Shown: piece after piece, positions 34,990 to 36,842 of the stretch
How the letters are laid out: each line of letters begins with the position of its first letter
Position numbering within the stretch: the first letter of the stretch is position 1
Origin: a virus
Strand: one strand, 5' to 3'
Length of the DNA: 41,266 nucleotides
Virus record (IMG/VR): IMGVR_UViG_3300032435_000024
Location: 1-41,266 of that record
The notes under the pieces: generated by a model
Database searches by the model: none
Told to the model about the DNA's origin: nothing
What the model saw: the letters and a program-made list of their open reading frames with translations, nothing else
Position numbers and translations under genes: made by a program

Positions 34990-35052
34990 GCCGCAGAAAG
35001 TAGCGGAACATGGTGTCTAGATGGTGAGAATCCGGAAATCGGATAGGGCACA

Positions 35053-35087
35053 AGAAAAAAGGCAGGACGGAAAACCGCCCTGCCTTC
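35053..35087 (-). terminator. Strong rho-independent terminator
   Basis: On the minus strand GGCAGGGCGG (35085-35076) pairs with CCGTCCTGCC (35070-35061), loop TTTT, with one G-T pair, followed by TTTTTT (35060-35055). It lies after the pentamer array and about 65 bases before the connector gene. It is the cleanest terminator in the window and would separate packaging genes from head genes. No promoter was found with confidence between it and ATG 34989. Confidence 0.85.
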
Positions 35088-35141
35088 ACCTTGCCTCGCC
35101 AAGCCACGCCGTGCCCCGCCTTGCCTTGCCAAGCCCCGCCT

Positions 35142-35180
35142 TTATTCGCGGAACCACCACCATGAGCCATTGGCTCCCTT
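35142..35180. repeat. Hairpin box 1 (GAGCCA type)
   Basis: TTATTCGCGGAACCACCACCA then ATGAGCCATTGGCTCCC; GAGCCA / TGGCTC (35164-35176) is a six-pair hairpin with a single T between the arms. The same box recurs at 35869 and 35957 with one or two changes. Confidence 0.85.
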
Positions 35181-35243
35181 GCCCTGCCATGCCGCGCCAT
35201 GCCCGGCCTTGCCAAGCCCCGCCATGCCACGCCATGCCACGCC

Positions 35244-35280
35244 ACTATTCGCGGAACCACCACCAACTCTAAAAGAGTCC
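35244..35280. repeat. Hairpin box 2 (ACTCT type)
   Basis: TATTCGCGGAACCACCACCA, then ACTCT AAA AGAGT (35266-35278), a five-pair hairpin, then CC. The left part matches box 1, but the hairpin sequence is different. It is repeated at 36045-36081. Confidence 0.85.
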
Positions 35281-35339
35281 TTGCCCTGCCGAGCCTTGCC
35301 ACGCCCGGCCTTGCCGCGCCCAGCCCGGCCCCGCCTTAA

Positions 35340-35795
35340 CTATTTTTTTCGCTCCACAAACGTCATCACCGGCGTCGTGCGTTCCGTGGGTGTCGCTTCG
35401 ATCGTCTCCCGCTTGCGAAGCAATGCAATCTTAAATGATTGATTGCTGACGTTCTTCGCGTACAGGTCTCGCTGCTCTGCACTGAGCTTGCCGACGTTGA
35501 CTGCCATCAGTCTGCGATGTGCCCGACGCGCCATGCGTAGCCCGACGTCGAACCGCTTCGGATTGTACTCTGCGGCCTCGGCATCCGTCAGGATGTGCAG
35601 TTCGCTTTTCACGATCCGCACCGTGATGTCACGCCCGTGTTGCTGCTTCAGTTGCTTCTGGACAAGGCCGAGCAGTTGCAGCAAAGCGAACGCGAATCCT
35701 TTCGGATCGCTGGTCTCCGGGAATCCGATTATGTCTTCGCAGAACGCCTGCGGAATTCCGTCACCCAGTTTCAATTTGTCTGTTTTGATTTGCAC
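35340..35795 (-). CDS. Hypothetical protein flanked by pentamer arrays
   Basis: A protein of 151 residues with a GTG start at 35795 and AGGAGAT upstream. It is helical in the N-terminal half (FAFALLQLLGLVQKQLKQQHG) and basic in the C-terminal half (GLRMARRAHRRLMAVNVG). No family is recognised. It is bracketed by two arrays of CCNNG pentamers, whose ends near its stop and beyond its start look alike. It may have moved with the arrays as a cassette. It sits between packaging and head genes. Confidence 0.7.
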   Translation of the reverse strand: MQIKTDKLKLGDGIPQAFCEDIIGFPETSDPKGFAFALLQLLGLVQKQLKQQHGRDITVRIVKSELHILTDAEAAEYNPKRFDVGLRMARRAHRRLMAVNVGKLSAEQRDLYAKNVSNQSFKIALLRKRETIEATPTERTTPVMTFVERKK

Positions 35796-35868
35796 TTCTA
35801 TCTCCTGAAAAGAATCCCTGCCTCGCCGTGCCTAGCCGAGCCATGCCTGGCCAAGCCCTGCCTAGCCC

Positions 35869-35905
35869 TTATTCGCGGATACGCCACCATGAGCCACTGG
35901 CTCCC
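35869..35905. repeat. Hairpin box 3 (GAGCCA type)
   Basis: TTATTCGCGGATACGCCACC then ATGAGCCACTGGCTCCC. GAGCCA / TGGCTC (35891-35903) pairs perfectly, with loop base C instead of T. TTCGCGGATAC replaces TTCGCGGAACC of boxes 1, 2 and 5. Confidence 0.85.
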
Positions 35906-35956
35906 TTGCCCTGCTGCGCCTTGCCGGGCCCCGCCTAGCCGCGCCCTGCCCGGCCC

Positions 35957-35993
35957 TTATTCGCGGATACGCCACCATGAGCCATTGGCTCCC
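35957..35993. repeat. Hairpin box 4 (GAGCCA type)
   Basis: Same as box 3 with one base different in the loop (T). Hairpin arms at 35979-35991. Confidence 0.85.
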
Positions 35994-36044
35994 TTGCCTT
36001 GCCGCGCCTGGCCTTACCGCGCCACGCCTTGCCACGCCATGCCG

Positions 36045-36081
36045 TTATTCGCGGAACCACCACCAACTCTAAAAGAGTCCC
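36045..36081. repeat. Hairpin box 5 (ACTCT type)
   Basis: TTATTCGCGGAACCACCACC then AACTCTAAAAGAGTCC. Hairpin arms at 36066-36078. It is nearly identical to box 2 in array 1. Confidence 0.85.
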
Positions 36082-36144
36082 TGCCTTGCCCAGCCCTGCC
36101 ATGCCCATGCCGCGCCTAGCCGTGCCTTGCCGTGCCTTAACTTT

Positions 36145-36711
36145 TCACACAATCTGAAACCGACCGAACTTCGGGCGATAGTCACACAAGCCAACCTGCG
36201 AACCAGCGTCTGCAACTGCAAGCTGGATCTGTTCCGGGTTCACTAACTCAGGGTTGTACTGTACGTCAAACGCCAGACGCCAATTGCGAAAAATCGGACG
36301 TGTCCGCATGATTCGCGACGTACCGACTTTGACGCCTCGGACGTCCGCGAATTCTTCCGCTCGCTTCCAAAGCTGATCGACGGTGAGCGATTCGCCGTAG
36401 TCCAAAAGTGATTCGTCCATGATCGCGATTGATGACTTGAACTGCTTGCCGAGCTTGCTCTTTTTTGCTCCTTCAATGAGGCAGCTTTCGAGAACTTCCG
36501 AGGGAATGCAGACCTGTTTTGTTGCAGACAGATACAAGCCCGCCCGGAATTCCAATTCGCTCAAAGCCAGATGTGTTTCGTCTGTCTTCTTTCGCTGTCC
36601 TGTCAGTTCCTTCATCTGCTTCGTGAAAGGATTGAGCGGGTTTGCGAGCTGCCCGTTGTGCATCAACAGCGGGGAAATGCCTTCGATTTTGAACTGAATG
36701 ATGTGAGCCAT
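36145..36711 (-). CDS. Conserved phage protein with SPLLMHNG motif
   Basis: A protein of 188 residues. It starts MAHIIQFKIEGISPLLMHNG and ends GLCDYRPKFGRFQIV, with helix-rich middle. This N- and C-terminal signature recurs in phage proteins of unknown function. The first strand recalls RAMP-type RNA-binding folds, but this is only a hint. It lies between a terminator (36728-36770) and pentamer array 2. The ATG has no strong ribosome-binding site. Confidence 0.65.
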   Translation of the reverse strand: MAHIIQFKIEGISPLLMHNGQLANPLNPFTKQMKELTGQRKKTDETHLALSELEFRAGLYLSATKQVCIPSEVLESCLIEGAKKSKLGKQFKSSIAIMDESLLDYGESLTVDQLWKRAEEFADVRGVKVGTSRIMRTRPIFRNWRLAFDVQYNPELVNPEQIQLAVADAGSQVGLCDYRPKFGRFQIV

Positions 36712-36727
36712 GTTTTACCATTCCATG

Positions 36728-36770
36728 AAAAAACCCACATCACAGAAGGCAAGTCCTGTGTGTGGGTTTC
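36728..36770 (-). terminator. Rho-independent terminator after the terminase operon
   Basis: On the minus strand AACCCACACACAGGA (36770 downward) pairs with the downstream arm TGTGATGTGGGTT, with a loop CTTGCCTT, and is followed by TTTTTT (36733-36728). It lies just before the 36145-36711 gene. The terminator is strong. Confidence 0.8.
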
Positions 36771-36803
36771 TCAGTGCGAGCCGAGGCCCGCGAAAGCTGG
36801 TTG

Positions 36804-36825
36804 AATCACTTCTTGCCAAGTGATT
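36804..36825 (-). other. Perfect eight-pair hairpin downstream of the 36843-37130 gene
   Basis: AATCACTT / AAGTGATT with a six-base loop CTTGCC, extended by GTT / AAC across one mismatch. It has no T run and comes before the terminator at 36728-36770. It may be an RNA end structure or a binding site. The 131-base gap between genes holds this hairpin and the terminator. Confidence 0.65.
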
Positions 36826-36842
36826 GAACTGGCACGATAACG

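Follow-up and report, generated by a model that had tools for sequence, protein, structure and literature searches.

A probable VIPR locus with seven candidate guide RNAs in a tailed-phage genome

Introduction

VIPR (Viral Interference Programmable Repeat), a class of RNA-guided DNA recognition that came to light very recently, uses a non-contiguous code and has been proposed to precede CRISPR. It was described in a 2026 preprint (PMC13142463), and its support as a system consists of that preprint and one PDB entry (36pp). As the preprint outlines it, VIPR is built from a RAMP protein, Vipr, and from vrRNAs of ~100 nt that co-purify with it. Each vrRNA consists of 9-16 YNNGG repeats and an invariable 3' tail, in which GGY anchors the Vipr subunits and the NN dinucleotides read double-stranded DNA with one base skipped. 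The system acts on rival phages through transcriptional repression, its accessory genes are termed vap, and it falls into seven types; arrays interspersed with hammerheads are also mentioned (PMC13142463).

The DNA analysed here, referred to as the window, is the whole 41,266-nt stretch of IMG/VR record IMGVR_UViG_3300032435_000024 (positions 1 to 41,266). It carries a locus whose closest known counterparts are the type II VIPR systems of Escherichia phage SUSP1 and a Pseudomonas fulva prophage (PMC13142463; PDB 36pp). Common to both are a Vipr RAMP protein, GGY-NN tracts of 9-16 units, a 3' hairpin tail, a small accessory gene (here a candidate), residence in a phage genome and arrays both upstream and downstream of genes. 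The tail of the window locus is nevertheless different, alternating between two hairpins, and the last candidate vrRNA ends in a terminator; the repeat is GGC, whereas that of phage wV8 is mostly GGU. Since protein, tracts and tails match the anatomy of VIPR, the locus is filed as such, at the level of VIPR as a whole and without one of the preprint's seven types. We assign a probability of roughly 0.9 to the reading that the locus is a VIPR system carried by a tailed phage, in which the arrays give rise to Vipr-coated vrRNAs whose NN dinucleotides guide the blocking of a rival element. The preprint (PMC13142463) already outlines the mechanism; the window adds a further locus.

Organisation of the locus

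Two intergenic arrays, at 35093-35337 and 35820-36136, occupy the gaps before and after the gene at 35340-35795 and consist of in-phase GCC-NN pentamers in seven blocks of about 10-13 copies each. Uninterrupted runs number 10, 13 and 11 copies in the first array and 10, 8, 4+5 and 5+6 in the second, where the breaks are one GCC>GCT change, one GCC>ACC change and one 3-base spacer. The longest in-phase GGY-NN run in the rest of the window is 3, and 500 shuffles of the array sequence gave no in-phase run longer than 4. The genes flanking the arrays, like the larger genes of the window, are encoded on the minus strand, so that the unit in RNA is GGC-NN, and both arrays begin 4-8 nt past the stop codon that ends the minus-strand gene upstream. 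The features of the locus, in order of transcription, are as follows.

36731..36769, minus strand: second terminator-like hairpin, just upstream of vipr, AAACCCACA...TGTGGGTTT TTTTC, recognised by eye
36145..36711, minus strand: vipr gene, 188 aa, ~21 kDa, RAMP/Cas7-fold, putative guide-RNA-binding protein, phrog_4652
36046..36143, minus strand: candidate vrRNA 1, ~11 GGC-NN repeats with one 3-base spacer, 3' tail with GACTCT/AGAGTT hairpin
35958..36045, minus strand: candidate vrRNA 2, 10 GGY-NN repeats, one of them GGU, tail with GAGCC/GGCTC hairpin
35870..35957, minus strand: candidate vrRNA 3, 10 repeats with one GGC changed to AGC, tail
35796..35869, minus strand: candidate vrRNA 4, 10 repeats, no box tail
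35340..35795, minus strand: candidate vap (accessory) gene, 151 aa, of a family that adjoins vipr in other phages
35246..35344, minus strand: candidate vrRNA 5, 11 repeats, tail with GACTCT/AGAGTT hairpin
35143..35245, minus strand: candidate vrRNA 6, 13 repeats, tail with GAGCC/GGCTC hairpin
35048..35142, minus strand: candidate vrRNA 7, 10 repeats, intrinsic-terminator-like hairpin in place of the box tail
35058..35087, minus strand: terminator-like hairpin closing the locus, 13 pairs and a T-run, conserved in the sister loci L006 and L009

The 3' end of candidate vrRNA 4 extends into the ribosome-binding region of the candidate accessory gene. A first-pass annotation of the same DNA had recognised the fixed-position pentamers and their placement on either side of this gene, and both observations stand at the positions given above. 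It had described the arrays as surrounding one unknown gene; the gene is indeed flanked, but the locus has three parts, namely vipr, the vrRNA arrays and the accessory gene. The TTAACT that it noted at both array ends is present and now reads as the complement of a short leader following the stop codon. What it overlooked is the minus-strand orientation, the closing terminator-like hairpin and the decisive neighbour gene at 36145-36711.

The Vipr protein and its relatives

Searched alone with phmmer, the product of 36145-36711 matches the SUSP1 Vipr (36pp_D) with an E value of 1.2e-33 over 184 residues, and a profile built from an alignment of 79 homologues (A1) matches the PDB entry 36pp, 'SUSP1 Vipr protein', at 2.8e-41. 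The 79 aligned sequences have a C-terminal G-x-G-D-x-R-P...GRF motif, and the window protein combines homology to SUSP1 Vipr with the RAMP/RRM fold and G-rich loop that are hallmarks of VIPR. The only previous label of its family was phrog_4652, function unknown, and a Pfam search with the array-linked protein returned no match. It is ~35% identical to the Viprs of SUSP1-like Felixounavirus phages and lies outside their branch of the tree. A search of genome_contigs with it matched one Bacteroides MAG and one Omnitrophota MAG only. Ten proteins of the window, when scanned, were phage structural and replication proteins or unknown.

The AlphaFold model of the window Vipr (pLDDT 97.2) gave a Foldseek list filled by Csm3/Cas7 chains, with best structural Z values of 10-11 (Z 11.1 over 154 residues for Csm3). 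The fold is therefore the same as that of the Csm3/Cas7 proteins of class 1 CRISPR-Cas systems, in which repeated RAMP subunits coat the guide RNA and unpaired positions recur periodically. Class 1 systems differ in having a continuous spacer, where the window has a five-base unit and a single small RAMP gene. No CRISPR repeat-spacer array with direct repeats of ~30 nt was found in the window arrays, whose period is 5 nt with three bases fixed and whose 88-103-nt units are tract plus tail, not repeat plus spacer. Three fixed and two free bases are also repeated, about 11 times, in the TRAP (mtrB) sites of mRNA, (G/U)AG-N2 x11, and ring binding of the TRAP kind was the first idea drawn from the 3+2 architecture. 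It was dropped because the linked protein, which has no Pfam match, is a RAMP; moreover, the TRAP core is NAG, whereas that of the window is GGY.

The gene between the arrays, 35340-35795, is probably an accessory gene of the VIPR locus, judging by the company its family keeps: iterative hmmsearch places members beside vipr in about nine other contigs. The family is weakly linked to a broader group, some of whose members show a marginal match of the methyltransferase-type DNA-binding kind, and the model of the window protein (pLDDT 89.6) is helix-rich, with a wing-like hairpin of two strands and one long helix; Foldseek with this model found no significant match, none being below E 0.27. The product may be a DNA-binding accessory protein. 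Elsewhere, ParB-like genes adjoin arrays and vipr at two loci (L088 and L118), and phrog_15946 is another accessory family, recurring in about ten contigs.

Arrays and vipr in other genomes

When scanned for (GCCNN)x8, eight units in phase, IMG/VR yielded at least 120 viral contigs chosen for the array alone. Iterative profile searches identified a vipr homologue in 84 of 120 such contigs among the matches listed, in addition to the window and the sister L009, and the genes upstream of arrays form one large homology group that includes 36145-36711. The association also holds in reverse. Arrays on the vipr strand are present at each of eight further loci picked only by their protein (in phages Medea1, LESphi2, MakoManhole, Trine, LittleE and wV8, a Bacteroides MAG and an Omnitrophota MAG), with 7-8 of 10 units in phase compared with 3-5 in shuffles of one such locus. 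At two of them, L247 (Pseudomonas phage Medea1) and L249 (the Bacteroides MAG), the arrays near the vipr homologue are short or degenerate (best 7 of 10 units).

Relative to the GGC strand, simple gene calls among the matches listed placed both neighbouring genes in sense for 93 arrays and both in antisense for 4, and in many loci the array starts 4-15 nt past a stop codon, the strand counts and the distances both including some near-duplicate contigs. Across about 120 related contigs among the matches listed, the first NN base is near uniform (23-27% each), the second leans towards pyrimidine on the GCC strand, and adjacent NN dinucleotides are nearly independent. Where GCC is replaced within otherwise perfect runs, ACC is more than four times as frequent as any other triplet; GCC>ACC on DNA corresponds to GGC>GGU in RNA, so the motif that is kept is GGY. 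The NN positions thus behave as information, and the hypervariable NN of VIPR tracts, 9-16 GGY/NN repeats long and beside vipr, has its counterpart here in an NN that is near random in related loci.

These properties bear directly on how such a repeat might arise. A degenerate microsatellite produced by replication slippage would account for a five-base unit arranged head to tail, yet slippage should leave neighbouring units alike, and the near independence of adjacent NN, the absence of strong autocorrelation and the near-uniform first position are the grounds on which it was dropped. With GCC strictly kept while NN varies, and with the arrays linked to one protein family, slippage has almost no chance of being the explanation. 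The early annotation was right to place conservation at fixed positions only, with GCC strictly kept and NN freely varying, and to call the arrays neither CRISPR nor satellite, as the 5-nt unit with three fixed bases, the independence of NN and the linkage to one protein family now bear out. Its further suggestion of a nucleoprotein array or RNA structure agrees with the expectation of an RNA coated by a RAMP protein. The thought that five bases, as half a helical turn, would matter for DNA has no support, because the arrays are oriented with transcription and their partner is a RAMP of the kind that binds guide RNA. Assembly error, raised as a possible refutation, does not hold, since the identical layout recurs in many independent contigs and in the genomes of cultured phages.

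Tails and terminators

On the RNA strand, five of the seven blocks are followed by a tail box of ~36 nt, a hairpin and then GGTGG..(..)TCCGCGAATA. The tail of VIPR RNAs, structured and 3' of the tract, is thus matched in five of seven window blocks by a predicted hairpin. The boxes lie at 35142, 35245, 35869, 35957 and 36045, and the hairpin is predicted in every one, as the first annotation had it; the hairpins are, however, of two kinds and not one. Two unrelated stems, GAGCC/GGCTC and GACTCT/AGAGTT, occur within otherwise near-identical tails, which argues that the hairpin structure matters. Of the two blocks without a box tail, one closes in the terminator-like hairpin and one is tailless. 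At gathering threshold Rfam gave no match to the locus, and a lax search gave a sub-threshold CsrC over the terminator as its sole match. When viral contigs were searched with the box only, seven of nine matches lay outside any array, in unrelated sequence.

The terminator-like hairpins at 35058-35087 and 36731-36769 bracket the locus. The latter was not listed by the automated hairpin scan, its loop being longer than the scan rule permits, and lies in a 121-bp stretch (36715-36835) with 79% identity to L009. Bracketing by two terminators would mean either that the promoter is very close to vipr or that transcripts read through. Tails of other kinds are seen at other loci. In L107 the vrRNA tail after each GGY-NN tract ends in a tRNA-like 3' half (GGTTCGACCCCGGGGCGCCGCCA), which suggests processing by tRNA enzymes or mimicry of tRNA, and in L069 the second tract is followed by GGATAGTCCGAACGCGAGGAGCAAACG, possibly a ribozyme-like tail.

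Probable exchange of modules between related phages

Two sister loci allow the parts of the system to be followed separately. Long DNA stretches of the L006 phage, reaching up to the array, are 71-74% identical to the window; the L009 phage shares pieces of 89-97% identity with it beyond the terminase. Tail box and terminator are identical in kind in all three. However, the L009 Vipr is 26% identical to that of the window and falls in a separate branch of the tree (100/100 support), and the gene between the L009 arrays is unrelated to 35340-35795. When L009:8150-10060 is set against window 35055-36835, the intergenic pieces are conserved and the genes are swapped. In other phages, the tails that accompany Viprs of either branch are quite different.

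The same tail and terminator beside a distant Vipr and an unrelated accessory gene suggest that RNA and protein modules exchange. That guide arrays and effectors are separately exchangeable, the tail being read through a feature that every Vipr has or by something other than Vipr, is a possibility we hold at somewhat less than even odds. A chimeric assembly of L009 is a less likely source of the pattern, because similar and dissimilar pieces alternate at several junctions. The main text of the preprint (PMC13142463) does not include such exchange of tail and protein, which is counted here as a new element.

The window and L009 have similar arrays with the same tails, between which protein modules swap, and single genes are often flanked by arrays; both observations could also be expected of integron-like sites for recombination or insertion, with the GCC cores as recombinase sites and the flanked genes as cargo. 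This idea was abandoned in view of the flanked genes, which belong mostly to one family, vipr, and to a few accessory families and do not form a varied cargo. No recombinase was found linked to the arrays and array orientation follows transcription, and we consider it very unlikely. Two of the earlier proposals, a selfish repeat, which would be transposed, and a set of recombination sites, gain no support from the arrays.

Candidate targets of the guides

Targets were sought in IMG/VR under the one-skip rule, as exact matches to eight consecutive dinucleotides, with window guides 2, 4, 5 and 6, one guide common to L006 and L009, and one shuffled control. The IMG/VR matches of window guides 2, 5 and 6 (13, 5 and 22, respectively) were scattered and random-looking, with no family and with ends unmatched. 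Guide 4 gave 53, of which 29 (in 29 contigs) fall in one protein family of ~490 aa and some in a second; both families are marine, and the end dinucleotides of the guide are unmatched there. Compared with the window itself and the two sister loci, the window guides had no match.

The shared sister guide, GT AT GA GG GA CA CA GA, sits at L006:6138-6194 and L009:8299-8350, the other guides of these phages being different. It gave 32 IMG/VR matches, 17 of them in one diverse family, GP88 (PF17338, E 3.8e-34), with pairwise identity from 28% and a median of 44%. All 17 fall at the invariant VIDGDQHD motif, in frame and in sense, and place the skipped base on the wobble position; the extra dinucleotide GG of the L006 guide falls on a glycine kept in 16 of the 17 proteins. 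The shuffled control (n=1) gave 45 matches, some in frame, its largest families having five members at >=84% identity. The matches of the sister guide are suggestive of the GP88 VIDGDQHD motif as what the sister system targets. The skip rule was also put to a pooled test with about 300 guides within 1.15 Mb of loci, which was underpowered and gave no excess at any skip length; its exact skip-3 matches were guides matching their own locus.

Vipr and its arrays could instead form a ribonucleoprotein for regulating the phage's own RNA or the stability of its mRNA, the arrays being 3'-UTR sites and not guides for DNA targeting. The start of many arrays just past a stop codon, on the mRNA strand, would suit this, as would the lack of a secure target for the window guides searched (2, 4, 5 and 6). 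However, NN is hypervariable and nearly independent, as expected of guides, and most blocks carry a tail each, which would befit separate RNAs; moreover, the sister guide spells out a motif conserved in a phage protein, and homologous systems have been shown to target (PMC13142463). Regulation of the phage's own RNA is therefore improbable, and guide-directed interference by VIPR remains the preferred reading.

Proposed function and significance

As a VIPR locus, the window would be expressed and active in the following way. Both arrays would be transcribed on the minus strand together with vipr and the accessory gene, and the transcript would be processed, as described for VIPR (PMC13142463), into up to seven vrRNAs of ~75-100 nt, each a GGY-NN tract followed in most cases by a 3' hairpin tail. 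Vipr molecules of ~21 kDa would line up along the tract, holding GGY and leaving the NN dinucleotides free to pair with DNA, with one target base skipped between dinucleotides (the code of PMC13142463). The bound complex would then block transcription of the rival element, in line with the repression reported in the preprint (PMC13142463).

New elements here are a seven-guide locus, tails with two hairpins, a tail that stays constant while the proteins around it are exchanged, and a candidate target motif. That the locus was found independently from raw sequence supports the linkage of repeat and protein at large scale (84 of 120 among the matches listed, and eight of eight in reverse). The mixing of tails with Vipr and accessory proteins bears on how guides are loaded, and the GP88 motif is a candidate natural target that can be tested directly. 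Phages probably use VIPR to switch off the genes of rival phages.
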